Shown here: one piece after another, positions 4,112 through 51,169 of the stretch
How the letters are laid out: each line of letters opens with the position of its first letter
Position numbering within the stretch: position 1 is the stretch's first letter
Source of the DNA: Gallionellales bacterium RIFCSPLOWO2_02_FULL_57_47
Lineage (GTDB): Bacteria; Pseudomonadota; Gammaproteobacteria; Burkholderiales; Gallionellaceae
Direction of reading: 5' to 3'
Assembly: GCA_001801175.1 (NCBI GenBank)
Contig: MGWZ01000033.1
Location: forward strand, 31,429 to 90,813
Length of the DNA stretch: 59,385 nucleotides
Made by a program: the position numbers and the translations under genes
The notes under the pieces: model-generated
The model's input: only the letters and a program-made list of their open reading frames with translations
Told to the model about the DNA's origin: nothing
Databases searched by the model: none

Positions 4112-5524
4112 ATGCTTATCACCGAATACCGTTTAGAACTTGCCATCCAGGCCCTGCGTGCCATCCTGCCGCTGGAGCATCCTGCCGACACCACACTGCG
4201 CTACTTTTTCAAGAACGAACGCATCGGATCCAACGAGCGGGAACTGGTCGCCGAGACCGTGTTCGGCGTATTGCGCCACCGCCTGTTGCTGGAACAATGC
4301 TGTGCCGGAAACACACCCCGCGACACGTTACCGGCGCAACCGGCCGCTTGCGGGAGCGGGTGTGAGGCGGCCATTGCTGAAACAACTAGCCATCCGACTA
4401 GGCTACCCAAAGACGGTAGCCAAGCCGCTGGTTATCCCGCCCCGGATGCTTCGCAACGCCGTGTCATGGCCGCCACTCCGCGCCGCATGGCGCTTGCCTG
4501 GCTGGTCAGGTTCGGCGGCTACAACCTGCGCGAACTCGAACCGGTATTGAAACGCGACGAGAAAGATTGGCTCGTCACCGTAAAGGGCGTGAAAGCCGGG
4601 GAGTTGCCGTTGCCGGTGCAGGCTGAACTGCCCGAATGGCTGGTGGAAAAAATGCGTGCGTCTTATTCCGATGCCGACATCCTTACCATCGGCCTGTCGA
4701 TGCAGCAAAGCGCGCCGCTGGATATCCGCGTCAACACCCTGCTCGCCAAGCGCGAGGATATATTGCAGCAACTGCGAGACAAAAATATTGAAGCCACTGC
4801 CACGCCGTACTCGCCCGTCGGCATCCGCCTCAAGGAAAAAATCCCGCTCAATCGCGATGCGCTGTTTACCGAAGGCAAGATTGAAGTACAGGACGAAGGC
4901 AGCCAGTTGCTCGGCTTTTTGCTTGCGCCCAGGCGCAACGACATGGTGGTGGATTTCTGCGCCGGGGCGGGCGGCAAGACGCTGATGCTGTCTGCGCTGA
5001 TGAATTCGCAAGGCCGATTGTACGCAATGGACGTATCGGAAAAACGGCTCGCCAACCTCAAGCCGCGGCTGAAACGTTCCGGCGCCAGCAACATACAGCC
5101 GATGCTGATTTCACACGAGAACGACCTCAAGGTAAAACGCCTGGCAGGCAAGATTGATCGCGTGCTGGTGGATGCGCCTTGCAGCGGCCTGGGCACGCTG
5201 CGCCGCAGCCCGGACCTGAAATTCCGCCAATCACCCGGCAGCATTGAAAAGTACACGCTACAACAAGCCGCCATCCTCGCCGCCACCAGCCGCCTGCTGA
5301 AAAAAGGCGGGCGACTGGTGTATGCGACTTGCAGCTTCCTGCCGGAAGAAAATCAGCACATCGTGCTAGCCTTCCTCGCCGCCCATCCGGACTTCGTGCT
5401 GCGCCCGGTCAGCGAAATATTGCAGCAGCAAAAAATCGCGCTGGATACGGGCGACTACCTGGAACTGCGCCCGCACCTGCATGGCACGGACGGATTTTTT
5501 GCGGCGGTACTGGAGCGGGTTTAG
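4112..5524 (+). CDS. rsmB: 16S rRNA (cytosine-967-C5)-methyltransferase
   Basis: Methylates C967 of 16S rRNA with SAM. The N-terminal NusB-like RNA-binding region is followed by the Rossmann methyltransferase domain with DFCAGAGGKTL (SAM binding) and the two cysteines of m5C enzymes in VDAPCSGLGTL and YATCSFLPEEN. At 470 residues it is about 40 longer than usual. The excess is an in-frame insertion at about residues 66-115, between VLRHRLLLEQ and ATPRRMALAWLVR, which contains a 57-bp hairpin repeat (4378-4434) inside further palindromic DNA. The enzyme probably tolerates it as a loop in the N-terminal domain. Confidence 0.95.
   Translation: MLITEYRLELAIQALRAILPLEHPADTTLRYFFKNERIGSNERELVAETVFGVLRHRLLLEQCCAGNTPRDTLPAQPAACGSGCEAAIAETTSHPTRLPKDGSQAAGYPAPDASQRRVMAATPRRMALAWLVRFGGYNLRELEPVLKRDEKDWLVTVKGVKAGELPLPVQAELPEWLVEKMRASYSDADILTIGLSMQQSAPLDIRVNTLLAKREDILQQLRDKNIEATATPYSPVGIRLKEKIPLNRDALFTEGKIEVQDEGSQLLGFLLAPRRNDMVVDFCAGAGGKTLMLSALMNSQGRLYAMDVSEKRLANLKPRLKRSGASNIQPMLISHENDLKVKRLAGKIDRVLVDAPCSGLGTLRRSPDLKFRQSPGSIEKYTLQQAAILAATSRLLKKGGRLVYATCSFLPEENQHIVLAFLAAHPDFVLRPVSEILQQQKIALDTGDYLELRPHLHGTDGFFAAVLERV
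4378..4434 (+). mobile_element. 57-bp hairpin element, copy 1 (inside rsmB)
   Basis: Starts TGAAACAACTAGCC and ends GCTGGTTA. The inner stem GACTAGGCTACC pairs with GGTAGCCAAGCC around CAAAGAC, with an A·A mismatch, and the outer stem AACTAGC pairs with GCTGGTT. The same architecture with different stem bases occurs at 47337-47396 and 51102-51158. It lies in frame in rsmB. The right flank TCCCGC is the same as for copy 2, and the wider region is bracketed by GGCGGCCAT and ATGGCCGCC. Confidence 0.8.
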
Positions 5525-5674
5525 TTACTCATTAAGACAGTGAAAATTTCATTTGATCCTGAAAAGCATTTGGCCACAGAGAGCACAGAGTAAAAACAAA
5601 AGGTTGACTCCTCTTTTGTGTAAGTCAAAGAAATACCTGATTAGCCACCAAGTTCAGTTGCACATTAAAAGATC

Positions 5675-5765
5675 CGTCATTGCGAGCGAAGCGCGGCAAT
5701 CCAGTTAATCAAAAATGCCTTTGTGAAAGAATCATCTGGATTGCCGCGCTTCGCTCGCAATGACG
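5675..5765. repeat. 30-bp perfect inverted repeat, dispersed type
   Basis: Arms at 5675-5704 and 5736-5765 are exact reverse complements (starting CGTCATTGCGAGCGAAGC) around a 31-bp spacer. This sequence type is a widespread intergenic palindrome in many bacterial genomes. It lies between convergent rsmB and the radical SAM gene and could act as a bidirectional RNA hairpin. Confidence 0.9.
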
Positions 5766-5793
5766 ATTTCTTCTGCGTTTCTTTGGTTGCCCG

Positions 5794-7020
5794 TCAGGGC
5801 ATGATCTCCACATACTCGTAGACTTCGCAATCGCGCAGGGTCTTGCGCACATCCAGCGGGGCTTTTGCGTACCAGGCGTGCGGATCGTGGCGGTCTATTT
5901 CCCTTCCCAGGAACCTTACCAGCTCGCAGATCGGATCGACGACTTTGCTGCGGTAGTCGCTGTCATTTTTCACGTAGGCGAGATAAAGATTTTTCAGGCA
6001 ATTTCCACGGCACCATGGCTGCGCTTCGCACTTGTCGCACGGCATATCGGGATGCGGCTGCAACGGGCTGGGCTTTAGCCAGTTTTCTATCAAGTCGCCT
6101 TGCAGCATTTCCGGCACGTACATCATGTCCGGGCAGGGATAAATCTTGCCGTCCGGCATCACGTTGAGGATATGCGTTGACACCCGGCATTGGGTTTTGC
6201 CCTGACAGAGCTCGGTTGCCCGCGTCGGCAGCACCTTGTTGCGCACGATCCCCATGATCGGGATGATGGGGTACAACTCGTCGCTGGAAAAGAATTTGTC
6301 CACCAGTTGTGCGATTACCGCTTTTTTCTTTTCCATCGCGGCGGAAGAATAAGTGCCCTCCCCGGCGACGAACTGGAAATACACATAGTCGAAAGTATTC
6401 GCCAGTTCGTCCAGTTCCTCGAATGAGGTTTCCTCGCTGCTCCAGGTCACGCGCGCCGTGAAGGTTCCCGCCATCCGGTCGCGAACCGCCCGGGTATTCC
6501 TGACTACCTGCCGGTACACGCCGCGCCCGCGGAAACCGTCGGTAATGGTCTCGCCGCCGTCTATCGAAAGCAGGATATTGGAAAGATTTGACAGAACCCT
6601 GTCCGGCAAACCGTCCAGCAGCGTGCCGTTGGTCTGAAGCTGGAAGCGGAAGGTTGGATAACGCTCCATGACTTCCTGGATGAATTTGAGATTCAGGGTC
6701 GGTTCGCCGCCGTAGAAAGTAACATAGATCTCGTGCCCGGCGAGATGCGTCGCAATAAAGGCATCCAGAGCATCCGTGGTGTAGGAAACCTTGCCCTGTG
6801 AGCCAACCATGTCACCCACGCCGAGCGAGCAATAAGTGCACTTCAGATTGCACGTCAAGGTGGTGAGCAGTTGCAGTTCCACGCGGTGGCCGACGATGGG
6901 GGAAGCTTTCATGACGTCTTCAACGACCTCCTGCGAACGAAGGGGGGCATACAACATTGGATTGGACATGGCAAAGTTTTGCATTGAATTGGAAGTATTT
7001 TTAAGACCGGGGGAAAACAA
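5794..7020 (-). CDS. Radical SAM/SPASM-domain protein
   Basis: Cytosolic radical SAM enzyme of up to 408 residues. The SAM-cluster motif is CNLKCTYC (C57, C61, C64), followed by the FYGGEPTLN glycine-rich motif. The C-terminal third carries SPASM-like cysteines (ELCQGKTQC, YPCPDM, CDKCEAQPWCRGNC) that would bind auxiliary Fe-S clusters. SPASM enzymes modify peptides or proteins or mature sulfatases; the substrate here is unknown. The start is uncertain: TTG at 7020 has AGGAA a few bases upstream, and internal ATGs exist at 6984 and 6966. The small gene upstream on the same strand (7206-7568) is a candidate partner. Confidence 0.88.
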   Translation of the reverse strand: MFSPGLKNTSNSMQNFAMSNPMLYAPLRSQEVVEDVMKASPIVGHRVELQLLTTLTCNLKCTYCSLGVGDMVGSQGKVSYTTDALDAFIATHLAGHEIYVTFYGGEPTLNLKFIQEVMERYPTFRFQLQTNGTLLDGLPDRVLSNLSNILLSIDGGETITDGFRGRGVYRQVVRNTRAVRDRMAGTFTARVTWSSEETSFEELDELANTFDYVYFQFVAGEGTYSSAAMEKKKAVIAQLVDKFFSSDELYPIIPIMGIVRNKVLPTRATELCQGKTQCRVSTHILNVMPDGKIYPCPDMMYVPEMLQGDLIENWLKPSPLQPHPDMPCDKCEAQPWCRGNCLKNLYLAYVKNDSDYRSKVVDPICELVRFLGREIDRHDPHAWYAKAPLDVRKTLRDCEVYEYVEIMP

Positions 7021-7205
7021 CAGGTTCCTGCAAGCGTACCGGGGGCGCCTTAGAAAAGGTGCTCACCATAATGTTTCACGATGCGCCTATGAAATCAGGC
7101 GGCAATTATCCACCGATTTTCAGGCCGATTCAACCGCGCCCGAAATATTGGATTACGTGTAGGCAAGCGGAATTATTTACCGGACAAGCCAAAAACAGCC
7201 GCGAA

Positions 7206-7568
7206 TCAAGGGCCGCTGCCTTTGCATTCCCGGTCATTGAATGTGCAGGTATTTTCTTGTATATGGCCTTTGTAATGCTCCTCAAACGAACGGCATATAT
7301 CCGGTTTGAAAAGCCACTGATGATCGGGCGTGGTAAAAAGCTTCACATCTATCGGAAGCTCCCGCTCCTGGTAAACCTCGATAATCTGCACTTCCTCAGG
7401 CTTTATACCGTTCTGGTGCAGATATTCCACCAGGCCGCAAATCGTGTCCGAAAAGTAGCAATTATATTCATCGCTCCCTTCAATAATGCGGATTCTGGCC
7501 TCGTAGGTATAGGGAATGCTCTTGTCGTATTTTGACTTTGGGCCAAGTATTTTTTCAATCAAACTCAT
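7206..7568 (-). CDS. Conserved-looking small protein of unknown function
   Basis: A 120-residue soluble protein that I do not recognise. The ATG at 7568 (MSLIEKILGPKSKYD) is preceded by CAGGGAGAA at good spacing, so the longer upstream extension is rejected. It has a mixed alpha/beta pattern, an acidic middle, and cysteines at CYFSDTICG, DICRSF and a C-terminal tail TCTFNDRECKGSGP. It lies about 190 bp upstream of the radical SAM/SPASM gene on the same strand, so it may be a partner or substrate of that enzyme; this is inference only. Confidence 0.7.
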   Translation of the reverse strand: MSLIEKILGPKSKYDKSIPYTYEARIRIIEGSDEYNCYFSDTICGLVEYLHQNGIKPEEVQIIEVYQERELPIDVKLFTTPDHQWLFKPDICRSFEEHYKGHIQENTCTFNDRECKGSGP

Positions 7569-7821
7569 AACCGTTCTCCCTGAAATGAAGGCTAGGCGTA
7601 GCATATGCCTGAAGTATATCGCCTGACCAAGCGAGTGTTTGAACCTCCCCATTGCCTGGCCAGCATACCGGTGGTTGCCTCATTAATCAACGCTGCTACG
7701 CCGTCCAAAAAATGCTTTCCCAAAATATCGCTTAAAAAGTTACAATTTGGGACATCATTGCTGCAAGCCATTGCATAACAAGCGCATAACTTTTTACTGA
7801 ACCGCTATCGAGGCTCCCACG

Positions 7822-8226
7822 ATGAACTGCCTTCGCGCCGCCCTGCTTGCACTGCTGTGTTGTTTTTTTCTTGCGGCATGCAACACCGTCAGCAGCGTCA
7901 ACGACAACAGTGTCAGGCCCGCGTGGATCGACAATCCCGGCAGCGGAGTTTCCGCTTCAGCGGGAATGCATGTTCGCGGCAAGGCAGCACAGGAAGAGCT
8001 GGCCATCCTTCGCGCGCGTGAAGAATACGCCAAGCGCTTCGGGGTGAAGATTGAAGCAGCGCAGACGATGACTACGACAGTGGCGGGCGGCCGGTCCAAT
8101 ACAGTGGGCGCACAAGTGTCACGCGAAGAGCTCAGGCAAGTCGATGTCAAGGCCGAGGTCAAAGCAAAATGGCGGGATCCGAATTCCGATGTATTGTGGG
8201 TGTGGTTAGTTCCAAGCACCCAATGA
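7822..8226 (+). CDS. Small outer-membrane-type lipoprotein
   Basis: A 134-residue protein with an N-terminal hydrophobic segment and the lipobox FLAACN, so it should be lipid-modified at Cys20. The remainder (AWIDNPGSGVSASAG, then an AQEELAILRAREEYAKRFG helix) resembles LPP20-like lipoproteins, but function is unknown. GAGGCTC lies just upstream of the start. It is followed 10 bp later by a transglutaminase-like gene, so the two are probably cotranscribed and act together in the envelope. Confidence 0.8.
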   Translation: MNCLRAALLALLCCFFLAACNTVSSVNDNSVRPAWIDNPGSGVSASAGMHVRGKAAQEELAILRAREEYAKRFGVKIEAAQTMTTTVAGGRSNTVGAQVSREELRQVDVKAEVKAKWRDPNSDVLWVWLVPSTQ

Positions 8227-8236
8227 GAGGCACGAG

Positions 8237-9814
8237 ATGAAGCCGTACCCTGCACCATCGTTTTTCAGACAGATGACCGTTGCATTCGTTTTCACATTTA
8301 CTGCCATAACACCGGCGTCTTTTGCAGCGTCCGATGATTTCGAGGCCTATCGGCTGCAACAGCAGCAAGGCGCGCAAAAGATCAAGGCAGAGTTTCAGGA
8401 GTACAAGGAAAATCAGGATCGCGAATTTTCCGGCTTTCTCAAGAGCCAGTGGCGCGAATTCGAAACTTTCCAGGGGAAGGTTCGCATCAAGGAGCCAAAG
8501 CCCAGACAGCTTCCGGTGGTCTTGCCCGCTGCACAGCCCGCCCCGGCGCAGCCTGTTCCGGCTCCGGAACCCATTGTTCCCAAGCCGGTACCCGATATCA
8601 AAGCCAAACCGTCACCCATAGCACCGGCGCCTGTCATCGCGCCTGTTGCAGTAGCGCCGGTCATCACACCGCCGCCACCGCCTCCCCAACCGAAACCGGT
8701 GCCGGTGGCTGCGGACAAGATTGAACTTTCTTTTTACGGCAATACGGTAAGTTTCCTCTTCGATCCACAGTGGAAGAAATACCGTTTACCCAACGGCGAC
8801 AAACCGGAGGCGATGAGCGCCTTCTGGACGATGATGAGCGGCAGCAAGTACGAACCTGCGCTCGAGTCGGTCAATGCGGCGCGGCGCGAACTCAAGCTGG
8901 ATGACTGGGGTTATGTGGCCCTGTGGCGCGATGCCGTGCAGGCGCTGCAGCCGGAGCGCAAGCCTGAACAAAACCTGTTGCTCTGGTATTTCCTCGTCAA
9001 GTCAGGCTACGACGTGCGTTTAGGCTACGCAGGACAGGATGTGCACCTGTTTGTTGCGGTCAAACAACAGGTGTTTTCGACCAAGTTCACCAGGGTTGGC
9101 CCACAGACTTATTATGCGGTGCTGGCCGCTGACCGCGGCGACAGCATCGGCTCCTTTTATACCTATGAAGCCAGTTATCCGGTCAAGCTCAAGCCGCTCG
9201 ACATAGCGTCTGCATCGACCAGCTTCACCAGGCCGGTGACAGCGCAGCGTGTACTGGCCTTCGAGTACAAGGGCGAGACGATCAGGTTAAACGTGCCTTA
9301 TGACCGGCGGCTGGTGCAATACATGGGCTCCTTCCCGCAATCCGAGTTCGCAATTTATTATGCGACAGACGGCAGCCAGCTGGTGCGCCAGTCCCTGCTC
9401 GCCGAGCTGAAAAAATACACCGCGATGATGAGCGAGGAAGAAGCCGTGAATTTTCTGCTCGCCTTTGTCCAGAAAGCCTTTGCCTACAAGACCGATGATG
9501 ACCAGTTCGGTTACGAAAAATATTTTTTCGTCGAAGAGTCGTTTTTCTTTCCCTATTCCGACTGCGAGGACCGCTCGGTGCTGTTCGCCTGGCTGGCGCA
9601 TGAGCTGGTCGGGGTGAAAATGATCGGCCTGCTCTACCCGGGGCACATGACGACTGCCGTGGCGCTCAGGCAAGTTAAGCCGGGTTTCTCCACGGTGGAT
9701 CATCAGGGCGCCCGTTTTGTCATTGCCGACCCGACGTATATCGGCGCATCGGTCGGCATGGCGATGCCTTTCTATGCGAAGTTAAAGCCCAATCGCGTGG
9801 TGGATATCCAGTAG
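8237..9814 (+). CDS. Exported transglutaminase-like protein
   Basis: A 525-residue protein with a signal peptide ending TPASFAA, a charged helical or coiled segment (about residues 35-85), a Pro/Ala-rich linker with a run of prolines (about 90-155), a beta-rich middle, and a C-terminal transglutaminase-like domain. The triad can be read as Cys in YSDCEDRSVLFAWL, His in LYPGHMTTAV and Asp in FVIADPTYIGA. The proline linker suggests a periplasmic domain reaching across the envelope. Substrate unknown. It follows the lipoprotein gene by 10 bp. Confidence 0.82.
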   Translation: MKPYPAPSFFRQMTVAFVFTFTAITPASFAASDDFEAYRLQQQQGAQKIKAEFQEYKENQDREFSGFLKSQWREFETFQGKVRIKEPKPRQLPVVLPAAQPAPAQPVPAPEPIVPKPVPDIKAKPSPIAPAPVIAPVAVAPVITPPPPPPQPKPVPVAADKIELSFYGNTVSFLFDPQWKKYRLPNGDKPEAMSAFWTMMSGSKYEPALESVNAARRELKLDDWGYVALWRDAVQALQPERKPEQNLLLWYFLVKSGYDVRLGYAGQDVHLFVAVKQQVFSTKFTRVGPQTYYAVLAADRGDSIGSFYTYEASYPVKLKPLDIASASTSFTRPVTAQRVLAFEYKGETIRLNVPYDRRLVQYMGSFPQSEFAIYYATDGSQLVRQSLLAELKKYTAMMSEEEAVNFLLAFVQKAFAYKTDDDQFGYEKYFFVEESFFFPYSDCEDRSVLFAWLAHELVGVKMIGLLYPGHMTTAVALRQVKPGFSTVDHQGARFVIADPTYIGASVGMAMPFYAKLKPNRVVDIQ

Positions 9815-9848
9815 AAATATCCGGGAATGGCTGTTTTCCAACAGGGTG

Positions 9849-12083
<2,235 letters not shown>

Positions 12084-12154
12084 AGGTAACGATTGTCGCA
12101 GAAATGCAAAAGCCACAGGAGATACCCGCGGCTTTTTTAACCTTTGAAGCATGT

Positions 12155-12211
12155 TGTAGGAACGGGCCATGCTCGCGACAAGAATATTCGCGGGCATGGC
12201 CCGCTCCTACA
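12155..12211. repeat. REP-like palindrome between hemE and priA
   Basis: TGTAGGAACGGGCCATGC and its inverted partner GCATGGCCCGCTCCTACA flank a short centre with further CGCGA/TCGCG pairing. It is of the TGTAGGAGCGGGC type well known as REP elements in pseudomonads. It fills the gap between the hemE stop and the priA start. Confidence 0.85.
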
Positions 12212-12229
12212 TCGGGTTAGGCAGACTTT

Positions 12230-13294
12230 TTAATGGTATTTGCGGCTCAGCTCATGCACCGCCGCAACCAGTGCCGCCACATGCTCCGGGTTGGTGTGCT
12301 GTGAAATGCCGTGGCCCAGGTTGAACACATGACCGCTGCCGTAGCCGTAGCTGCTGAGCACTTTTTCAACTTCGGCATGGATCGCCTCGGGTGAGGCGAA
12401 CAATACCGCCGGGTCGAGGTTGCCCTGCAGCGCGACCTTGTGGCCGACCTTCTGCCGCGCGATGCCGATGTCCATGGTCCAGTCCAGACCGATCGCATCG
12501 CAGCCGGTGTTGGCAATACTTTCGATCCACAGTCCGCCGCCCTTGGTGAACACGATGCTGGGGATGCGCACGCCGTCTTTTTCCTTGATCAGGCCATCCA
12601 CGATGCGATGCGTATAGGCCAGCGAGAATTCGTGGAATGCCGCATGCGACAATACCCCGCCCCAGGAATCGAAGATCATCACGGCCTGTGCGCCGGCTTC
12701 GATTTGCGCATTCAGGTAAGCGATTACCGCCTGGGTGGTCACCTCGAGAATGTGGTGCATCAGCTTCGGCTCGTTGTACATCAGGGTCTTCACCTTGGCG
12801 TAATCGTCGCTGCCGCCGCCCTCGACCATGTAGCAGGACAACGTGAACGGGCTGCCGGAGAAACCGATCAGCGGAATACGTCCATCCAGCGCCTTGCGAA
12901 TCTGCGTCACGGCATCGGTGACATAGCGCAAATCCTTGCCGATGTCCGGCACCCGCAGCGCCTTGATCGCCGCTTCGTCGCGCAACGGGCGCTCAAACTT
13001 CGGGCCTTCGCCATCGGAAAAATACAGTCCCAGGCCCATCGCATCCGGCACGGTAAGAATATCCGAGAACAGAATCGCCGCGTCCAGCGGGAAACGATCT
13101 ACCGGTTGCAGCGTCACTTCAGTGGCATAGTCCGGGCTCTTGCACAGCCCAAGGAAGCTGCCGGCGCGTTTGCGCGTCTCGCGATATTCCGGCAGGAAAC
13201 GACCGGCCTGGCGCATCATCCACATTGGCGTGTAATCGGTCGGCTGGCGCAGCAGCGCGCGCAGGAAAGTGTCGTTTTTCAGTTTGAAATTCAT
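12230..13294 (-). CDS. hemE: Uroporphyrinogen decarboxylase
   Basis: Decarboxylates the four acetate side chains of uroporphyrinogen III to give coproporphyrinogen III in haem synthesis. Length 354 aa is standard. The signature [16 protein letters not shown] lies near residue 25, the active-site Asp is in [13 protein letters not shown], and [19 protein letters not shown] is intact. It lies upstream of priA on the same strand, separated by a REP palindrome. Two other haem genes (hemB, hemL) lie near 36-39 kb, not in the same unit. Confidence 0.97.
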
Positions 13295-13332
13295 ATTCTC
13301 TCTTCGTTAAATACTAAATCCATCCTCAACTA

Positions 13333-13407
13333 AACCCCTCCCGGCCTCTCCTTGTCAGGGGAGGTAATCACAGTTCCTCCCCTGACAAGGGGAGGTTAGG
13401 AGGGGTT
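13333..13407. repeat. Long inverted repeat between hemE and gltD
   Basis: Arms at 13333-13364 and 13376-13407 (AACCCCTCC...CTTGTCAGGGGAGG and its complement) are nearly perfect around an 11-base loop TAATCACAGTT. It is a dispersed CCCCTCC/CTCCCCTTGTCAGGGG palindrome. It lies downstream of gltD and could form a stable RNA hairpin, but no U-run follows. Confidence 0.9.
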
Positions 13408-13411
13408 GGGT

Positions 13412-34700: not shown

Positions 34701-34737
34701 GGCCGTTCGTGCTGAGCTTGTCGAAGCATGAATGGCC
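34701..34737. repeat. GTTCGTGCTGAGCTTGTCGAAGC palindrome
   Basis: Arms GGCCGTTCGTGC and GCATGAATGGCC pair (two G·T-type differences) around TGAGCTTGTCGAA. Same family as the copies inside priA and at 51021-51054 and 51082-51169. Confidence 0.88.
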
Positions 34738-36669: not shown

Positions 36670-36737
36670 TCAGTAAATCCTTATCTTACTTGGCGAATGG
36701 CGTGAGTCATTCCACGTTTCTCCTCCCTGAACGTGTA

Positions 36738-36756
36738 TCTTAACGCTATGTTAAGA
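36738..36756. repeat. Perfect 7-bp-stem hairpin TCTTAAC-GCTAT-GTTAAGA
   Basis: It lies 5 bp before the strong terminator hairpin at 36761-36799 in the 273-bp gap between engB and hemB. It could be an operator or part of a structured RNA. Confidence 0.6.
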
Positions 36757-36760
36757 CTTC

Positions 36761-36799
36761 AGTCCCTAGTCTCAATCCCCTTGACTAGGGACTTTTTTT
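36761..36799 (+). terminator. Strong rho-independent terminator with no plus-strand gene
   Basis: An 11-bp perfect stem AGTCCCTAGTC/GACTAGGGACT with an 11-base loop is followed by seven T on the plus strand. The flanking genes hemB and engB are both on the minus strand, so either a short plus-strand RNA ends here or the structure acts otherwise in the hemB leader. No other feature is seen in 36634-36906. Confidence 0.75.
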
Positions 36800-40421: not shown

Positions 40422-40425
40422 CTAT

Positions 40426-40996: not shown

Positions 40997-41041
40997 AAAA
41001 TGCATGCTTAATCTGGAATTGGGATAAGACAAATACAGGTG

Positions 41042-42926: not shown

Positions 42927-44350
42927 TGGCTGTCTTTTACGTCGAGGCGGTATTCCACAAACGCGCGGTCGCGCAACTGGCGCAACCAGTCCTGATACAA
43001 CTCGTCCGACTTGAACGTGCCTATGGATATACGCGCCTGCTGGCGCTTCTGTTGCTCGCTGACATCGGTGTTGCGCCGCTCCAGTACCTGTATCAAATGC
43101 CAGCCGAATTGCGTTTGTACCGCGCCCATCATGCCGGGTTGCAGCTTGTTCATTGTCCCTTCAAATTCCGACACTGTCTGCCCCGGTGACAGCCAATCCA
43201 GATCTCCACCCTGTTGTGCGCTGCCATCCTGCGAATAGCGCTTGGCTTGTTCGGCAAAATCCGCACCCGCCTCGATGCGCTCCTTGATCTCCATCAGACG
43301 CCTTTTGGCCTCGCTTTCCGAAACGATCTCGCTGGTCTTGATCAGGATATGCCGCGCATGGGTCTGGGAAATTACCACCGGCGCATTGCCGCTGCGTTTC
43401 TCAACCAGCTTGATAATGTGGAAACCGCTCGGGCTGCGTAACACGGCAGAAACCTGCCCCGGCTGTAATTCCTGCAATTCGTTCAGAAAAAGCGGCGGAA
43501 GGTTGTCACTGGGCCGCCAACCCAGATCGCCTCCTTTCAGCGCGTCCCTGGCATCGGAAACGCCAGCCGCGACCTGGGCGAAATCCGCACCGTTCTTCAA
43601 TTGTTTCAGCGCCTGTTCGGCTTTGTCGCGTGCAGCCTGTATTTTTTCCGCGCTGGCCTGTTCCGGCACCACCACCAGAATGTGCGCAAGATGGAACTCA
43701 TCTCCGGCGCCACCCATCTTGTCTTTGTTGGCCAGATAGTTGTCAACCTCGCTGTCGCTGATGATGAGCTTGCTGTCCACTTCACGCTCGCGCAGCCGCG
43801 TGGAAATAATCTCACTGCGAATTTCCTCGCGGAACTTCCTGAAGTCCACACCTTCCGCTTCCAGCTTGGCGCGAAATTCAGCCGATGTCGGAAACTTGTT
43901 TTGTTGTGCGATGCGTGTTATCGCCATATCCAGCTGCGTATCGTCCACGCGCATGCCGCTTTCATTCGCATACTGCGCCTGCAGCATGTCGTTGATCATG
44001 CGTTCGAGAATCTGCCGCTCCAGCACCTCGGCGTCAGGCAGCGGGGTGCGCTGTTTCTGCAGCTGGCGCACTACGGTACGCACCTGTTCATCCAGTTCGT
44101 AACGGGTAATCACATCATCGTTAACCACCGCAACCACTGCATCAAGAACCCCTGCTTGTTGTTGCGGATCGATGGGCGGCAGTACATTTTTAGCCGGCGA
44201 TGGTGTCAACTCCGCACCCCGGTCGCCGGGGGTTTGATTGCCTGGCTTCGTTACGGCCTTCCCGATCTTGGGCGAAGACGCATCGGCACCGTATGCCGAT
44301 TGCACCACGAGCAACGCACCACACATCAACAGTTTTTTTATTTGCATCAT
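42923..44350 (-). CDS. surA: Periplasmic chaperone / peptidyl-prolyl isomerase
   Basis: Escorts outer-membrane proteins. 475 residues with a signal peptide ending QSAYGAD, an N-terminal SurA chaperone domain, and two parvulin domains (first around FHLAHILVVVPEQA, second around THARHILIKTSE). Lies between lptD and pdxA, 12 bp after lptD; the classical lptD-surA-pdxA-rsmA order. Confidence 0.97.
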   Translation of the reverse strand: MMQIKKLLMCGALLVVQSAYGADASSPKIGKAVTKPGNQTPGDRGAELTPSPAKNVLPPIDPQQQAGVLDAVVAVVNDDVITRYELDEQVRTVVRQLQKQRTPLPDAEVLERQILERMINDMLQAQYANESGMRVDDTQLDMAITRIAQQNKFPTSAEFRAKLEAEGVDFRKFREEIRSEIISTRLREREVDSKLIISDSEVDNYLANKDKMGGAGDEFHLAHILVVVPEQASAEKIQAARDKAEQALKQLKNGADFAQVAAGVSDARDALKGGDLGWRPSDNLPPLFLNELQELQPGQVSAVLRSPSGFHIIKLVEKRSGNAPVVISQTHARHILIKTSEIVSESEAKRRLMEIKERIEAGADFAEQAKRYSQDGSAQQGGDLDWLSPGQTVSEFEGTMNKLQPGMMGAVQTQFGWHLIQVLERRNTDVSEQQKRQQARISIGTFKSDELYQDWLRQLRDRAFVEYRLDVKDSQ

Positions 44351-44362
44351 TTTCTTTCGTAA

Positions 44363-46579
44363 TCAGGGTAAAGGCTGCGTGGTTTTTTCGGCAGATTTGA
44401 CGTTCGTTTTTGCATAGCCTGGCACGCTTTGCTTGAGCAAACTCAAAGGATCAGCGCCTACCTTAATAAAATCGTTCAGCTCGAGTTGGACAAAGAATCC
44501 CGTATTGGATTGTTGCGTGGCGGTGGCAAAATGCTGTGCGACGAGACGCAGTGTCCAACAGCTCTGATTATACTCAAGCCCCGCAATCGCCTCCAAAGTC
44601 CGGTCATCCTGCAGCGAATAGTCCCAGCGGCCCACCGCATGCCAGCGTCCGGTAAGCGGCCATTGCGAGGAAACGTCGACCTGACGCAGTGCATTGCGCA
44701 TGAAGCGGTACCCCAAATTAAAGACCTTGCCGGCTTCCGGGCGGTAACGCGCCGCGATGTTATAACGTTGCGCATGCGACTGATTCGGGTCAAATTGAAA
44801 CTCGCTGTCCACCGACCAGGCATCGGTGATCCGCCCCGCAGCCGCCAGCAGAATATCCGACTTGTTGATTGTCGTTGTCGGCGTGATCAGATTCACCCGG
44901 GGCGTTTTGAAACTGAAACGCTCACCCACCGTCACCTTCAGGCGCTCCATGCCGTTTACGCGCTCAAGCAGGCGCGATGTCATCGCCAGTGTGACATGAT
45001 CGGCATCGCCGAAGCGATCACTGCCAAAAAAGCGATTCTCGGTGAACATCTGGGTAAAACTGAAATCGGCCTGCGCAGTGTCAAAGTTGGGCAGTAAGTC
45101 CTGATTTCGGTATGGCACATAGACATAAAAAACGCGCGGCTCGAAAGTTTGCAGATAATCTCCGCCAAACATGTTTGAGTCGCGCTCGAATGCTATTCCA
45201 CTGTCGATACTATAAACCGGCAACACGCGCGCAGCGTTCTGCAACGCCGTGACATTATTTGCCCCCATCACATATTTGGTGCCGTGCAACGCGACCTTGG
45301 GTGTGATGTAAACGGCTGAATCATCCAGCAGCGGATAACTTATGCTGGGGTATATCACCAGGCGCCTGCCGTTCACCGCAGTTGGATGACTGAAACTCAC
45401 GAATTCACCGGCAAGATTGAATGTCGCGGCGGAAACACTCTGCTGCGCGTCAAGCGTCACTTGCGGCAGACGCGCGTACGGCACGGCGATGGGCGCGGCA
45501 GGGTCCTGCAAAGTCTGATAGCGTTGCACTCGCGCAACCGCGTTCCATGAGCCCGAGTTGAATTTCAGGCCACCCTCCTGCAGCAGGTTGGCTTGGGAAG
45601 TGGCATTCACGGCATTTCCCAGATCGCGAAAATAGGCATCATCCGCAACACGGTTGTAATTAACGAAGCCGGCAAAGCCGTCCGCCAGCATCTGGTCATG
45701 CTTCAGAGCAAACCGCGCCCGATCGCGGTCTGCCACTTTATCGTTGGGCAGCACGTCGACATGCAGTTCGCCGCCATAATCGCGCCCCAAATAGCGGTAT
45801 TCGTTGTTCAGCATCAGGCCGCGCTTCAGCATGATGCGCGGTGCAAAGGTCGCGTCCTGATTCGCCGCAATATTCCAGTAATAGGGCAGTGTTACTTCCG
45901 TTCCGCCCTGGCTTGTGCCGCCAAAAACCGGCGCCAGAAAACCCGATTTGCGCTGGTCGTTAAGCGGAAAATCCATCCAGGGCGTGTACAGAATCGGCAC
46001 GCCCTTGAACTCAACCGTCGCATGACGCGCCACGCCGATCATCCGGTCCCGATCCAGCTCCAGCATGCCCATTTTCATCATCCAGTCATCATTCCCCGCG
46101 GGACAGGTGGTGTAGGTGGCATTGTCAAGGCTGAAGTGCTCGCGATCCTGGATGCGCAGCGCATCCGCAGAACCACGAGCCTCATTTGCTTCCAGATAAA
46201 ACTGCGGTTGTTCCATCCTGCCGGCGCTATTGCCCAGATTGAACAGGAGGTGCGGCCCGCTCATCGTATTGCCATCCTGTTTCAATATTACCGATCCCCG
46301 CGCATCCAGATCCTGCGAGCGTTGCTGATAGAGAAACCGGTCTGCACTGATAGACTGTCCGTTTTGTCGTAGAGTCGCATTGCCGGTCGCCTCGATTTGG
46401 TCATCCTTTTTCCCCGACAAGCTGTCTGCCTCAATGATGGCCGGCCCGTTCTGGTCAGCCTCGACGCTGCCTCTGGTGGCGGTATCAAGTCGAACCGCGG
46501 TCGTGCCCGTATCCGCACAAGAGTCATGCGCAAGGCAACACAGCGAGAAAATAACCAGGGAATTGAGACGAAACCGCAT
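44363..46579 (-). CDS. lptD: LPS-assembly protein
   Basis: Outer-membrane beta-barrel that inserts LPS with LptE. 738 residues: signal peptide, N-terminal OstA/beta-jellyroll (IEATGNATLRQNGQSISAD; LDARGSVILKQDGNTM), then a long barrel domain with alternating aromatic strands. The disulfide cysteine pattern is sparse (CPAGNDDW and C-terminal CWTLRLVAQ). First gene of its four-gene unit. Confidence 0.96.
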   Translation of the reverse strand: MRFRLNSLVIFSLCCLAHDSCADTGTTAVRLDTATRGSVEADQNGPAIIEADSLSGKKDDQIEATGNATLRQNGQSISADRFLYQQRSQDLDARGSVILKQDGNTMSGPHLLFNLGNSAGRMEQPQFYLEANEARGSADALRIQDREHFSLDNATYTTCPAGNDDWMMKMGMLELDRDRMIGVARHATVEFKGVPILYTPWMDFPLNDQRKSGFLAPVFGGTSQGGTEVTLPYYWNIAANQDATFAPRIMLKRGLMLNNEYRYLGRDYGGELHVDVLPNDKVADRDRARFALKHDQMLADGFAGFVNYNRVADDAYFRDLGNAVNATSQANLLQEGGLKFNSGSWNAVARVQRYQTLQDPAAPIAVPYARLPQVTLDAQQSVSAATFNLAGEFVSFSHPTAVNGRRLVIYPSISYPLLDDSAVYITPKVALHGTKYVMGANNVTALQNAARVLPVYSIDSGIAFERDSNMFGGDYLQTFEPRVFYVYVPYRNQDLLPNFDTAQADFSFTQMFTENRFFGSDRFGDADHVTLAMTSRLLERVNGMERLKVTVGERFSFKTPRVNLITPTTTINKSDILLAAAGRITDAWSVDSEFQFDPNQSHAQRYNIAARYRPEAGKVFNLGYRFMRNALRQVDVSSQWPLTGRWHAVGRWDYSLQDDRTLEAIAGLEYNQSCWTLRLVAQHFATATQQSNTGFFVQLELNDFIKVGADPLSLLKQSVPGYAKTNVKSAEKTTQPLP

Positions 46580-46647
46580 AACGCGCAGCGAGTAGTAAGA
46601 TGATAAACTTTCGCAAGTTTACCATTAACCCCGTTGAAAAGCCCTTT

Positions 46648-47886
46648 ATGCAACGCCTGCAACAACTCACCGAGTGGCTGCACAGCCAGTTCCCAAACGA
46701 AACCTTCACCCTTGCGCCGGCCTCCGCAGATGCCAGCTTCCGCCGCTATTTTCGCGCCACATATTCTGATCGCACCCTGATCGTGATGGATGCGCCACCA
46801 CAACAAGAAGATTGCCGCCCGTTTCTGCACATCGCCAGACTGTTCGAGGAAGCCGGAACGCATGTCCCGCATGTCTATGCGCAGGACTTGCAGCAGGGTT
46901 TCCTGCTGTTGTCCGACCTCGGCAGCACCACTTACCTGCAGGCACTGTGCGGAGGGGTCGCTGCGCAGCAGCGGTGCACCCACCGGCCTCCTCCTTGCGG
47001 GGAGGATGCCGGCACGGCGCGCGAGCTGTATGGCGCCGCCACCGACGCGCTGATCAAAATCCAGCTCGCGTCGCGCGAAAATGAGCTGCCCCCCTATGAC
47101 AAAGCCCTGCTGCTGCGCGAGATGCGCCTGTTTCCGGAGTGGTATATCGCGAAGCATCTCAATATCACCCTGACCGGCAAACAACACGCCAAACTGGAAG
47201 AGGTCTTTGCGCGCATCATCGCCAACAACCTCGCCCAACCGCGCGTATACGTGCACCGCGACTATCATTCGCGCAACCTGATGTATATCGAGCCCCCTCT
47301 CCTCAATCCTCTCCCGTTGCCCTCTCCTCAATCCTCTGATGGAACAACTAGCCATTCGACTAGGCCATCAAAGGACAATGGCCAAGTCGCTGGTTATCCC
47401 GCAAGCGGGCGAGGAAGCAAACGAAACCATCAATTGTTGATCCCTGCGGGAGAGGAGGCGAAAGAGAAGACCAATTTTCTGATCTCGCCCGGCATTCTCG
47501 ATTTTCAGGATGCCGTATACGGCCCGATCACCTACGACCTCGCATCGCTGTTCAAGGACGCCTATATCAAATGGGAAGAAGCGGAGATCATCGACTGGCT
47601 GATCCGCTACTGGGAAAAAGCACGCAAGGCCGGGTTGCCGGTAGCCGAAGATTTCTCCGTGTTCTACCGCGACTACGAATGGATGGGCGTGCAGCGGCAT
47701 ATCAAAGTGCTGGGCATTTTTGCGCGCCTGTACCACCGCGACGGCAAGGACGGCTACCTTAAAGACCTGCCACTGGTGATGGCGTATCTGCGCGCTGCCT
47801 GCACACGATATATCGACCTCAAGCCGCTGTTAAATCTGCTGGACGAACTGGAACCGCACGCGGCACAGACGGGGTACACCTTTTGA
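46648..47886 (+). CDS. amgK: N-acetylmuramate/N-acetylglucosamine kinase (APH fold)
   Basis: Anomeric sugar kinase of peptidoglycan recycling; works with MurU. About 412 residues from ATG 46648, well above the usual 330-350. APH-type catalytic loop VYVHRDYHSRNL and metal motif ILDFQDAVYGPITYDLA are present. Two in-frame insertions account for the excess: one at about 46947-47020 (Cys/Pro-rich, between YLQAL and ARELYGAATDAL), and one at about 47290-47480, between MYIEPP and ISPGILDFQDA, directly after the catalytic loop, which contains hairpin element copy 2. Function may be reduced, but the frame and all motifs survive. Confidence 0.9.
   Translation: MQRLQQLTEWLHSQFPNETFTLAPASADASFRRYFRATYSDRTLIVMDAPPQQEDCRPFLHIARLFEEAGTHVPHVYAQDLQQGFLLLSDLGSTTYLQALCGGVAAQQRCTHRPPPCGEDAGTARELYGAATDALIKIQLASRENELPPYDKALLLREMRLFPEWYIAKHLNITLTGKQHAKLEEVFARIIANNLAQPRVYVHRDYHSRNLMYIEPPLLNPLPLPSPQSSDGTTSHSTRPSKDNGQVAGYPASGRGSKRNHQLLIPAGEEAKEKTNFLISPGILDFQDAVYGPITYDLASLFKDAYIKWEEAEIIDWLIRYWEKARKAGLPVAEDFSVFYRDYEWMGVQRHIKVLGIFARLYHRDGKDGYLKDLPLVMAYLRAACTRYIDLKPLLNLLDELEPHAAQTGYTF
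46947..47020. repeat. CCTCCTCCTTGCGGGGAGGATGCC-type repeat inside amgK
   Basis: A GC-rich segment with GGTCGCTGCGCAGCAGCG and CCTCCTTGCGGGGAGG hairpins, in frame in amgK and absent from the APH fold as I know it. Confidence 0.65.
47337..47396 (+). mobile_element. 60-bp hairpin element, copy 2 (inside amgK)
   Basis: Starts TGATGGAACAACTAGCC and ends GCTGGTTA. Inner stem GACTAGGCCAT / ATGGCCAAGTC with a central A·A mismatch; outer stem AACTAGC / GCTGGTT. It splits a CCCTCTCC...CCCGCAAGCGGGCGAGG repeat: the 17 bp before and 18 bp after, joined, match the uninterrupted copy at 47902-47936 in 33 of 35 positions, with no target duplication. Confidence 0.85.
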
Positions 47887-47901
47887 CGATGCTGCGCATC
47901 T

Positions 47902-47936
47902 CCCTCTCCCCAACCCTCTCCCGCAAGCGGGCGAGG
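47902..47936. repeat. CCCTCTCCC...CCCGCAAGCGGG repeat (empty site)
   Basis: Intergenic copy of the repeat that elsewhere (47320-47414) is interrupted by the 60-bp element. The core CCCGCAAGCGGG is a perfect hairpin. Located between amgK and murU. Confidence 0.85.
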
Positions 47937-47961
47937 GGGCGAACGTGAAAGGCGTAAACCC

Positions 47962-48714
47962 ATGATAGCAATGCTTTTAGCAGCCGGTCGCGGCGAACGC
48001 ATGCGCCCGCTCACCGACCATACTCCCAAGCCGCTGCTGGAAGCCGGCGGCAAACCGCTGATCGTCTGGCACATCGAAAGACTGGCGCGCGCCGGCATCA
48101 CCGACTTGGTCATCAACCACGCCCACCTCGGCGCACAGATCGAAACCGCATTGGGTGGCGGCAGCCGCTACGGTGTCCGCATCCGCTATTCGGACGAAGG
48201 CACTGCCCTGGAAACCGCCGGCGGCATCGCCTATGCCCTGCCGTTACTACTCCCCTCGCCCGCTGGCGGGAGAGGGGGCGGGGGAGAGGGAGAACCCTTC
48301 GCGGTAATCAACAGCGACATCTACAGCGACTACGATTTTGCGCATTTGTTTGAACGCGCCGCCGCGCTGCAAGCCAGCGGCGATGCCGCCCACCTGGTGC
48401 TGGTCGACAACCCGCCCCACCATCCAAAAGGTGATTTTGGACTTACAGATGGTCGAGTGACAGACACCTTTTCCTCAATCCTGAACCCTCAATCCTCAAT
48501 CCTCACTTTCAGCGGCATCGGCATCTACCAGACATCGCTGTTCAAGGATATCCCGCGCGGCAGCATCGCGCCGCTCGCGCCGCTGCTGCGTGCACAGATC
48601 GCCCTCGGCAAGGTCAGCGGCGAGCACCACCGGGGCTTATGGGTGGATGTCGGCACACCGCAACGCCTCGTCGAACTCGACAAGCTGATTCGCTCGTCGC
48701 ACAATGCACCATGA
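47962..48714 (+). CDS. murU: N-acetylmuramate-1-phosphate uridylyltransferase
   Basis: Makes UDP-MurNAc from MurNAc-1-P, bypassing MurA in peptidoglycan recycling. 250 residues, above the usual 220-230. [20 protein letters not shown] is the nucleotidyltransferase signature; [11 protein letters not shown] carries the metal Asp. Two in-frame repeat insertions: [16 protein letters not shown] (48250-48292, a CGCCCGCTGGCGGG hairpin) just before the AVINSD motif, and [11 protein letters not shown] (48471-48507, CCTCAATCCT units). Confidence 0.93.
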
Positions 48715-50027
48715 CTATCGATTCAACCATCTATGCAATGCGGCGCAAACGCCTGCTGGAAACGATGCAGCGCGGCATCGCCATCGTCCCCACGGCGCCG
48801 GAAGTGGCGCGCAACGGCGACACCCGCTATGGATACCGCTTTGACAGCAACTTCTATTACCTGAGCGGCTTTGCCGAGCCGGAAGCGGTGCTGGTGCTGG
48901 TTGCCAGCCAGGACAAGAATAGCGAGACACAATCCATCCTGTTCTGCCGCGAAAAAAATCTGGAGCGCGAAGTCTGGGACGGTTACCGCACCGGCCCAGA
49001 TGCCGCAAAAGATGAATACGGTTTCGACGCGGCTTACCCGATCGCACAGCTGGATGAAAAGCTGGCCGAACTGATGGGCAACCAGCCTGCGCTGTTCTAT
49101 CCGGTGGGCCACGATACCGCATGGGACCAGCGCATCCTCAGGCTGCGCGGCGAGGTGCAGGCCAAGGCGCGCAGCGGCATCCGCGCCCCGAACGAAATAC
49201 ACGACGTACGCACGCTGCTCAACGAAATGCGCCTGTTCAAGGACGAACACGAGCTGATGATGATGCGCCACGCCGCCGAAATTTCCACGCATGCGCATCG
49301 CCGCGCGATGCGGTTCACCCGTCCCGGCCAGTTCGAATACCAGCTTGAAGCCGAATTGCTGCACGAATTCTGCCGCCATGGCGCGCGCTTCCCCGCCTAC
49401 CCTTCCATCGTCGCCGGCGGCGCGCATGCCTGCGTGCTGCATTACGTCGGCAACAATGCCAGGCTCAAGGACGGCGACCTGCTGCTGATCGACGCGGGCT
49501 GCGAACTGGACGGCTACGCCTCCGACATCACGCGCACCTTCCCGGTGAACGGGCGTTTCTCCGCCGCACAAAAAGACGTCTATGAACTCGTGCTCGCCGC
49601 GCAATCCGCCGCAATTGCCGTCGCCCGACCCGGCAAGACCTGGAATGCGCCGCATGACGCCGCGCTGAGCGTGCTGGCGCAGGGCTTCATCGACCTCAAG
49701 CTGTGCCAGGGCAGCGTGGATGCCGTGCTGGAAAGCGAAAGCTACAAGCGGTTTTACATGCACCGCACCGGCCACTGGCTGGGCATGGACGTGCACGATG
49801 TCGGCAATTACAAGACCGGTGACAACTGGCGCGCGCTGCAAACAAGCATGGTGTTCACCGTCGAGCCGGGCTGCTACATCCGTCCTGCCGATGACGTGCC
49901 GCAGGCGCTATGGAACATCGGCATCCGCATCGAAGACGATGTGGCGATCACCGAACTGGGCAATGAAGTGCTTACTGCTGCTGCGCCGAAAACGGTGGCG
50001 GAGATTGAGGAGTTGATGCGAACCTGA
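48711..50027 (+). CDS. pepP: Xaa-Pro aminopeptidase
   Basis: M24 metallopeptidase releasing N-terminal residues next to proline. 438 residues from ATG 48711, overlapping the murU stop (ATGA). N-terminal creatinase-like domain ([11 protein letters not shown]), then metal ligands in [20 protein letters not shown] (two Asp), [13 protein letters not shown] (His), VEPGCYI (Glu) and IRIEDDV (Glu). Confidence 0.97.
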
Positions 50028-50048
50028 AAAATCATGGATACAGCAAGC

Positions 50049-50144
50049 GTAGGGCGGGTCACACCCGCCGTAAAACGAAATCATGAAAAAATCGATTCAA
50101 AATTTGGAGAATGATTTTGAAAAGGCGGGTGTGACCCGCCCTAC
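50049..50144. repeat. REP pair GTAGGGCGGGT...ACCCGCCCTAC
   Basis: Facing units at each end of the 150-bp gap between convergent pepP and nrdG; same family as 22185-22271. Confidence 0.9.
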
Positions 50145-50179
50145 GCCGCTTATGCATAGCGGAGTCCCATTGATTCGGC

Positions 50180-50881
50180 TTATCCCCGGCGCACCGAAAA
50201 GCTATCGAACATCACCCCGATGCGGCTGCACAACACCTCATCCAGAAACTCCTGCACCGGGTAGGAGCTGACTTTCTCGTCGGCGCAACCCTGCGGGCGG
50301 AATTCCTGCAGCACGTAATTGCGCACACCCAAATCCCGCAACTCCTCTGCAAGCTGCAGCAATGAATCCTTGCTGTGATACAACGGATGCACGGTGGTGC
50401 GGAATTCACAGGGCACGCCGCTGGCCAGCAGCAGCCGGGCGCTTTCCCGTGCTTTCTCTCCACTCGCCGGAGTGCCGGTCACCTTGTCGTAATCGCTGAA
50501 AGCAGCCTTGATGTCCATGCCGACCCAGGAAAGCAGCGGCAACAGTTCGCCGAGGCGCGACGGGTAGGTGCCGCCGGTATGCAGACCAACCTTGAAGCCG
50601 AGGTTGCGCACTTCGTTGATGGCGGATGCGAGGCTGTCTTGCAGCGTCGGTTCGCCGCCGCTGAAAACGACCGCGTCCAGCAAGCCCTGGCGGCGGCGCA
50701 GAAAGCTGAGCACCGACGGCCAATCCAGTTGGGTATCGCTATTGCGGGGAATAAGATGGGGATTGTGGCAATAGCCGCAGCGCCACGGACAGCCCTGGCA
50801 GAACACCACGGCAGCCAGGCAGCCGGGAAAATCGGTGCTGGTTAGCGGCGTGAGACCGCCGATTTGCACACGATCTTTCAA
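50180..50881 (-). CDS. nrdG: Anaerobic ribonucleotide reductase activating protein
   Basis: Radical SAM activase that makes the glycyl radical of NrdD. 233 residues. Cluster motif CPWRCGYC (preceded by CQG), VFSGGEPTLQD, and VGMDIKAAFSDYDKVTG. No ATG is suitable: TTG at 50881 (or GTG at 50869) is the start. It is separated from the nrdD genes by a 317-bp stretch of repeats. Confidence 0.95.
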   Translation of the reverse strand: MKDRVQIGGLTPLTSTDFPGCLAAVVFCQGCPWRCGYCHNPHLIPRNSDTQLDWPSVLSFLRRRQGLLDAVVFSGGEPTLQDSLASAINEVRNLGFKVGLHTGGTYPSRLGELLPLLSWVGMDIKAAFSDYDKVTGTPASGEKARESARLLLASGVPCEFRTTVHPLYHSKDSLLQLAEELRDLGVRNYVLQEFRPQGCADEKVSSYPVQEFLDEVLCSRIGVMFDSFSVRRG

Positions 50882-51020
50882 GCCCGGTCTCCGGCGGGCT
50901 TGGAAAGTCGGCGTCCCGTTTCGTGTGTAATGTTTGGCAAAGAATTTCCAGTGGCGAAGGAAGCCAAGGCCGGGCTATTTGCGCTTTCTAAAGCATATAT
51001 TGGCGAAACGCTTGTTAAAC

Positions 51021-51054
51021 CCGTTCGCCCTGAGCCTGTCGAAGGGTGAATGAA
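51021..51054. repeat. CCGTTCGCCCTGAGCCTGTCGAAGGG palindrome
   Basis: Dispersed palindrome of the family also found in priA and at 34701-34737, between nrdG and the small nrdD gene. Confidence 0.85.
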
Positions 51055-51081
51055 TTAACGCAGTGATTCATCAGTCCCTCT

Positions 51082-51169
51082 GTTCATGGTTCGACAAGCT
51101 CTGATGGAACAACTAAGTATTGACTAAGCACGATACCCCTGTGCTAAGTCACTACTTAACCACGAACGG
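51082..51169. repeat. GTTCATGGTTCGACAAGCTC palindrome interrupted by a hairpin element
   Basis: Left half 51082-51101 and right half ACCACGAACGG 51159-51169 together make an ordinary copy of the TTCGACAAGCTC palindrome. The 57 bp between them is element copy 3. No other gene is seen in 50882-51198. Confidence 0.82.
51102..51158 (+). mobile_element. 57-bp hairpin element, copy 3 (intergenic)
   Basis: Starts TGATGGAACAACTAAG and ends ACTACTTA. Inner stem GACTAAGCAC / GTGCTAAGTC with the same A·A mismatch, loop GATACCCCT, outer stem TAAGTA / TACTTA. Stem bases differ from copies 1 and 2 while pairing is kept. Inserted between AAGCTC and ACCACG of another palindrome, with no target duplication. 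Confidence 0.82.

Follow-up and report, generated by a model that had tools for sequence, protein, structure and literature searches.

A dispersed family of short hairpins with exact empty sites in a Gallionellales genome and its relatives, probably a non-autonomous mobile element

A stretch of 59,385 nucleotides from Gallionellales bacterium RIFCSPLOWO2_02_FULL_57_47 (contig MGWZ01000033.1, positions 31,429 to 90,813 of the forward strand; the window hereafter means this whole stretch) contains three copies of a short hairpin element. The hairpins belong to a large dispersed family, beyond chance repeats, and the element consists of a 12-nt leader, TGATGRAACWAC, and a hairpin of about 48 nt. 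It is probably a very short non-autonomous mobile element whose folded single-stranded DNA would be cut and joined in trans by an enzyme of the HUH/Y1 type. The copies in the window were matched by a covariance model trained on 16 copies from the same genome:

4375..4434, + strand: hairpin copy 1, 60 nt (leader 4375-4386, hairpin 4387-4434)
47337..47396, + strand: hairpin copy 2, 60 nt (leader 47337-47348, hairpin 47349-47396)
51102..51158, + strand: hairpin copy 3, 57 nt (leader 51102-51113, hairpin 51114-51158, outer stem TAAGTA/TACTTA)

All three copies proposed in a first-pass annotation, which was made from the letters of the window, were present. The coordinates given there for copies 2 and 3 were exact; copy 1 had been started at 4378, and the covariance model sets its first base at 4375 (C33:35803), so that it reads TGCTGAAACAAC...GGTTA and, with the start 3 bases upstream, is as long as copy 2. 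Exactly 3 of the 78 model matches in the window's own genome fall within the window, and these are copies 1, 2 and 3. In a scan of the window against Rfam, no hairpin copy matched any family at the gathering score.

The leader is followed by an outer stem, a short unpaired spacer, an inner stem and a variable stem with its loop, and the element ends with TTA. The leader is unpaired in the modelled structure and is kept by sequence, while the hairpin is kept largely by pairing. The conserved A.A mismatch first noticed in the window closes the inner stem and was confirmed across the 16 own-genome copies. Three paired forms of the outer stem were found behind much the same leader, namely TAGCCA/TGGTTA, TAAGTA/TACTTA (copy 3) and TAAGC-/-GCTTA, the last of them in another family of the order; as read from the sequences, the letters of the outer stem vary while its predicted pairing persists.

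The stems had been described as changing in their bases with pairing kept, and this covariation exceeds chance. Both sides of 11 of the 17 stem pairs had changed among the 16 own-genome copies, as had 13 of the 17 pairs in an alignment of 122 rows (110 distinct), where 94.6% of the cells were paired. Both-side changes, the share of paired cells and the covariation score were reached by 0 of 500 shuffles in either alignment, and slid (offset) structures scored far lower than the proposed structure. One of the five measures, further pair types, was as high in 231 of 500 shuffles with the 16 copies and lay above the shuffles in the 110-row alignment. The 122-row alignment was fitted to the model and therefore leans towards it. 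The covariation in the 110 distinct rows supports the selection on folding that had been suggested. Folded singly as single-stranded DNA, copies 2 and 3 outfold nearly all shuffles on either strand (z-scores of -3.2 and -4.5 for the top strand and -3.5 and -5.0 for the bottom strand). Copy 1 barely differs from shuffles, its fold alone being weak at z-scores of only -1.3 (top) and -2.2 (bottom).

The size of the family was apparent from the 14-base start of the element: with up to 2 mismatches allowed, 54 occurrences were counted in the window's genome, compared with 14 of a reversed control. The search with a covariance model that had been advised in the first-pass annotation gave 78 own-genome matches at E ≤1, 42 of them full-length and above 56 bits, and at E 0.001 it matched 104 of 120 genomes of the same family, apparently Gallionellaceae. 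At the order level 22 of 300 genomes were matched at E 1e-5, nine of the 22 being from the own family, and at the class level 3 of 369 at E 1e-6, the own genome among the 3. The exact core occurred in named public genomes mostly of Gallionella, Sideroxydans and other Nitrosomonadales among the matches listed, and copy 2 with 10 bases of flank per side had no match in plasmid and phage collections. A literature search found no paper that combines Gallionella with palindromic and repetitive extragenic elements, and none of the 10 papers listed out of 1,568 matches to a broader search on transposable elements and repeats mentioned Gallionellaceae; the main texts of PMC3733652 and PMC6006769 mention neither Gallionella nor Sideroxydans.

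A set of 140 copies was assembled from 42 own-genome copies and 98 of the 104 matches from 80 of at least 118 public-genome stretches. The own-genome retrieval omitted two weak matches, C72:7280 and C39:3319 (C, L and G numbers denote contigs, loci and genomes), and a further search covered 100 chosen loci. The lengths in this set were 60 nt (86 copies), 59 nt (21), 54 nt (19), 61 nt (5), 57 nt (4) and 52 nt (2), with single copies of 50, 62 and 66 nt. A rule that the length is always a multiple of three, to which 18 of the first 19 copies conformed, is broken by this spread, with its lengths of 59, 61 and 52 nt among others.

Insertion of the element is exact. For copies 1, 2 and 3 the inserts amount to 60, 60 and 57 nt, and the target is neither duplicated nor lost; each of the three has an empty site that demonstrates the absence of target duplication, which the first-pass annotation had assumed. 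The host genes and repeats in the window are as follows:

4112..5524, + strand: RsmB/F-like 16S rRNA methyltransferase gene (PF01189, PF22458), open through the insert
4322..4465, + strand: larger palindromic insert GACACG...CGTGTC around copy 1, in frame in the RsmB/F-like gene, ends judged by eye
34703..34725, - strand: host repeat of copy 3, empty, with 1 mismatch, an uninterrupted form inside the window
46600..47886, + strand: AmgK-like phosphotransferase gene (APH family, PF01636), open through the insert
47296..47484, + strand: composite palindromic insert around copy 2, in frame in the AmgK-like gene, 63 residues (233-295)
47909..47931, + strand: host palindrome of copy 2 without the hairpin, empty, inside the window

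A comparison of filled and empty sites in relatives, also advised at the outset, found uninterrupted flanks for copies 1 and 2. Together with the many further copies in the genome searches, this decides both of the refuting tests set out in the first-pass annotation in favour of its reading as a mobile family. Among the 11 relatives aligned at the copy 1 locus, G144, G056, G132, G096 and G062 are without the palindromic insert, G146, G143, G135 and G147 have it without the hairpin, G074 has both insert and hairpin, and G044 reads differently. The RsmB-like gene reads GGCTCC|element|TCCCGC in G074 versus GGCTCC|TCCCGC in G143, a gain of 60 nt; the empty sites of G135, G146 and G147 have GACTCC or GACCCC before the joint. 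At the copy 2 locus, for which 10 relatives were aligned, the nested palindrome without hairpin (CCTC|TCCCGC) is present in L283 (G121) and L284 (G129), a simpler palindrome in L286-L288, and no palindrome in L285, L290, L293 and L309. In L282 the simpler palindrome has a hairpin at the corresponding point, seemingly through an independent insertion. Copy 3 splits the repeat TTCGACAAGCTC|ACCACGAACGG. Elsewhere in the own genome, the repeat GGCTC|ACCACG is filled in L007 and empty in L039.

The element prefers a particular site. The bases flanking the insertion point were C|T in 102 of the 140 copies, T|T in 26 and others in 12. Among the 124 copies with the standard TG/TT start, 100 had C|T, the background of CT being 5.0%, and position -1 was C in 91% of the 117 copies covered by the flank table. 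The C|T count is inflated because host repeats are shared among copies; unrelated host repeats follow the same rule. Eight of the 140 copies sit immediately behind a second leader, which in 6 of the 8 is then followed by an older hairpin, indicating that the leader/hairpin joint (AC|TA) of an old copy is itself a target. Identical 60-nt copies were found in 6 of the 8 genomes from which equal-scoring copies were retrieved. Two identical copies in unrelated flanks occur in G108, the sole such pair among the 6 genomes.

The layout of the element, with outer stem, unpaired spacer, inner stem and variable top, is similar to that of an integron attC site. The attC joint is at the G|TT point. The joints of the empty sites are not at that point, and this candidate was rejected.

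Copies of the element are depleted in genes yet not excluded from them: 61 of the 140 lie inside a frame of at least 120 codons that is open through the element (47 of the 61 on the same strand), whereas 2169 of 2800 random places do. Within the element, forward frame 2 is open in 123 of the 140 copies, forward frame 3 in 108 and forward frame 1 in one, and one reverse frame is open in 104. What lets copies persist in genes is that, as a rule, two forward frames out of three are open and that the most frequent length, 60 nt, is divisible by three. This persistence would be tolerance filtered by selection, any benefit to the host being conjectural.

Ten proteins from the 15 own-genome loci with a spanning frame were scanned, L049, L051, L061, L062 and L183 being left out. 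In 8 of the 10 (an AmgK-like protein, two RsmB-type proteins, MutY, IspE, MoeA, a histidine kinase and a P-type ATPase), conserved gene sequence is found on both sides of the in-frame insert; protein names beyond the Pfam matches, and the part of MutY upstream of the insert, are the analyst's reading. In the other two, TsaE and a QueE-like radical SAM protein, the insert is close to the N-terminus, possibly upstream of the true start. The 63-residue insert of the AmgK-like protein is located between HRDYHSRN and the DFQD motif, and in 18 of 29 relatives the alignment halts at residue 228-232 and restarts at 292-296. An AlphaFold model of this protein had a mean pLDDT of 38.7 and was discarded. 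A second short stretch of the AmgK-like protein, GGVAAQQRCTHRPPPCGE at residues ~115-134, was present in G000, nearly the same in L285 and absent from the other 11 aligned relatives; it is possibly another coded repeat. The larger inserts at 4322-4465 and 47296-47484 appear in relatives in stages, from none through a simple palindrome and a nested palindrome to the palindrome plus hairpin, and these larger palindromic repeats may themselves form a separate mobile family.

A shorter related form carries the same hairpin behind a different leader, GCTTTGCA or near it, and often lies within repeats ending in CTAC, which is GTAG on the opposite strand. On contig C11 of the own genome (30934-36876, L208), three identical hairpins with the leader GCTCTGCA lie in composite repeats CGGCGGGTT...AACCCGCC ending in CTAC, and two of the three adjoin a RAYT-type (REP-associated tyrosine transposase) Y1 gene; REP stands for repetitive extragenic palindrome. 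This gene was considered as the mover and was not supported, since its neighbours are related hairpins with a different leader and the other Y1 loci are mostly without the element. In L198, L201, L212 and L215 of the own genome, the form with the GCTTTGCA leader sits in the loop of full-length elements, forming hairpins within hairpins; the model matches of the nested hairpins in L198, L201 and L212 are 96-117 nt long. One own-genome copy (L006, C63:58972-59056) is lengthened by the stretch CTGTCCTGAGTGAAGTCGAAGGA, which we take to resemble another common dispersed repeat.

The mobile unit proposed here is the sequence-conserved 12-nt leader together with the structure-conserved hairpin ending in TTA. 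It would move as a folded single strand of DNA, and an HUH/Y1-type enzyme supplied in trans would recognize the leader together with the mismatched hairpin, in the manner of TnpAREP and the IS200/IS605 transposases. The unit is inserted in a single exact step that neither duplicates nor removes target bases, and the preferred place is between C and T. No enzyme was identified, and the single-strand model therefore rests on the form of the element and of its insertion, from which we infer the single-strand intermediate, its strand and the class of the enzyme. A Y1 enzyme is a plausible mover.

The E. coli TnpAREP, as described in sections of PMC8266576, requires a folded single strand with a mismatched (irregular) stem and cuts at CT; the spread of REP-like hairpins is described there as unsolved, and sections of PMC6006769 report that REPs too can lie in frame within genes. 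The present element resembles the REP/RAYT system in its short hairpin, its conserved stem mismatch, the conserved tract 5' of the foot and its many copies, and its C|T insertion point matches the TnpAREP cut, the sites here being read from sequence alone. It differs in that the GT[AG]G tag is missing, a search of 101 Y1 loci found no cognate RAYT with full-length copies on its flanks, and it has a 12-nt leader, precise single-hairpin insertions with empty sites and a good share of its copies within genes. With the IS200/IS605 elements it has in common the absence of target duplication, insertion 3' of a short site and a hairpin with a tract 5' of its foot; it has, however, one hairpin instead of left and right ends and a two-base site preference, and no Y1 gene between the same ends was found.

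Rickettsia palindromic elements (RPE) are palindromic repeats in frame in conserved protein genes, with the mover unknown, and the classical bacterial miniature inverted-repeat transposable elements (MITE) are short, non-autonomous and dispersed, some of them coding in frame (for RPE, parts of PMC2229807 and PMC3733652; for MITE, parts of PMC2229807). The hairpins described here likewise are palindromes in frame in conserved genes, but they are 60 nt long compared with 105-146 nt for RPE, come from environmental genomes and show exact insertion with empty sites, the two being compared by description only. Like the MITEs of the Correia/NEMIS, ERIC and RUP types, the element is short, non-autonomous and dispersed with in-frame cases; unlike them, it has neither inverted repeats at its outer ends nor target duplication. 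The tag test sets the hairpin element apart from REPs, and the duplication test from MITEs. In its way of working it would resemble REPs or the ends of IS200/IS605 elements, and it shares with RPE the habit of lying in frame in genes.

In this family, filled sites can be compared with empty ones base by base, and the insertion rule is simple, mostly C|T without duplication. Several states of one gene are seen side by side, and the leader is separable from the hairpin. In-frame palindromic inserts, reported in Rickettsia and Wolbachia, are extended to environmental relatives of iron oxidisers, with their stepwise build-up visible.

Mobilization by a Y1 transposase of the IS200/IS605 or RAYT type, as proposed in the first-pass annotation, was not established, and a number of results weigh against such an enzyme or against the folded-strand model more generally. 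Matches to PF01797 (Y1) were found in 91 of the 120 family genomes, and Y1 and hairpin counts were uncorrelated across the 120 (Spearman 0.10, p 0.28; hairpin counts near 45 per genome are at-least values). Of 62 genomes with at least 10 copies, 12 have no Y1 match at E 0.001, including the single-contig G044 and G057, and two single-contig genomes without a match at this threshold hold 27 and 11 copies. This absence depends on the threshold, as 12 of 13 chosen genomes match at E 0.1 (G027 included), with G044 still without a match. G058 (13 Y1 genes) and G039 (8) have no hairpin at E 0.001. Y1 loci are rarely near hairpins: 2 of 78 loci (250 kb, some overlapping) had a hairpin model match, one of them the related C11 form, and 2 of 23 further loci had a clear match; among the 101 loci, clear full-length copies near Y1 genes were found in L244, L415 and L403 only. 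A Y1 gene flanked by the same ends, which had been suggested as a check, did not occur among the Y1 loci examined.

No GT[AG]G tetranucleotide lies 5' of the hairpin. The leader ends in CNAC, mostly CAAC or CTAC (16 copies), and the 5' side of the other strand is host DNA. Folding fails to single out one strand, since the bottom strands fold at least as well as the top strands; the top strand has 11 G.T versus 23 A.C cells with two fixed columns excluded, so that wobble pairs give no strand choice either. The orientation of hairpins to the replication fork, which bears on a preference for the lagging-strand template, was not clearly skewed, at 55 versus 39 (p 0.12) in 5 single-contig genomes, with the terminus assumed opposite dnaA, and 50 versus 31 (p 0.045) when the terminus region was excluded. 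Joined empty targets (135 of the 140, the flanks of the others being too short) fold only slightly above control, with a mean of -17.4 versus -15.4 kcal/mol (p 0.0016) and 6 or more enclosing pairs in 99 of the 135 versus 842 of 1276 controls. Where identical copies were found, their flanks also agree in 5 of the 6 genomes, indicating that larger repeats spread as well. In the 14 largest gene clusters near copies, judged mostly by eye with 3 proteins scanned, no transposase was recognized; neither these clusters nor the Y1 loci yielded the mover enzyme.

An enzyme outside PF01797, such as a different HUH nuclease, a recombinase that works on folded single strands or an enzyme of a new type, is a less probable alternative. 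In its favour, 27 and 11 copies occur in single-contig genomes that lack a Y1 match, and G044 has none even at E 0.1, but genomes without Y1 may hold relics after loss of the enzyme. The three DUF559 genes described below point the same way as a weak lead. A tentative extension is that an enzyme not belonging to the known Y1/RAYT group needs only the leader plus any hairpin of the right shape to copy the unit into C|T sites, and that the unit's sparing of the frame allows in-frame inserts to build up, one within another, in conserved genes of free-living bacteria. It is a little more doubtful that the hairpins are an unusual branch of REPs, moved by a resident RAYT (TnpAREP), in which the leader has replaced the GTAG tag. 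Insertion at C|T would then correspond to the TnpAREP cut at CT (PMC8266576), the stem mismatch is as in group 2 REPs, and hairpins with a GCTTTGCA-like leader on C11, two of them beside the RAYT-type gene, lie in repeats whose end is CTAC, which is complementary to GTAG, or nearly so. However, the Y1 loci are not enriched for the hairpin, the counts are uncorrelated, G058 and G039 carry Y1 genes without it, and the tag is absent from its 5' side.

The exact empty sites bear on two further explanations. That the hairpin is not itself mobile and is a passenger within larger spreading palindromic repeats is improbable: 20 of the 140 copies lie in a CCCTCTCC...CCCGCAAGCGGG palindrome, many are in larger repeats and identical copies mostly have common flanks, but at orthologous places these larger repeats are seen both with the hairpin and lacking it, the hairpin is found with exact ends in several unrelated hosts, and the empty sites contradict a passenger unless they are exact deletions. 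Whether the empty sites are exact excisions and not pre-insertion states was weighed as well, and this is slightly less probable still. IS200/IS605-type chemistry can excise an element and reseal the donor strand, so excision with closure would be possible; on the other hand, several relatives and several own-genome host repeats are empty, and the tandem leaders show insertion into older copies. A non-autonomous element moving as folded single-stranded DNA remains the preferred reading.

In the 118 hairpin loci, DUF559 (PF04480, nuclease-like) was found in three genes only, L089:5288-5641, L120:145-513 and L144:1359-1778. Their distances to the nearest hairpin are 19 nt (L089), 40 nt (L120) and 19 nt (L144), and the L120 gene is located between two copies; 22% of random places in these loci are within 300 nt of a hairpin. 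None was found in 92 Y1 loci, 59 rsmB/amgK loci, 104 own-genome loci or 51 other loci. With three genes being few, DUF559 is a weak lead as a mover candidate.

The sole Rfam family in the window at the gathering score was anti-hemB (RF02837, 57 bits), at 36711-36799 on the + strand.

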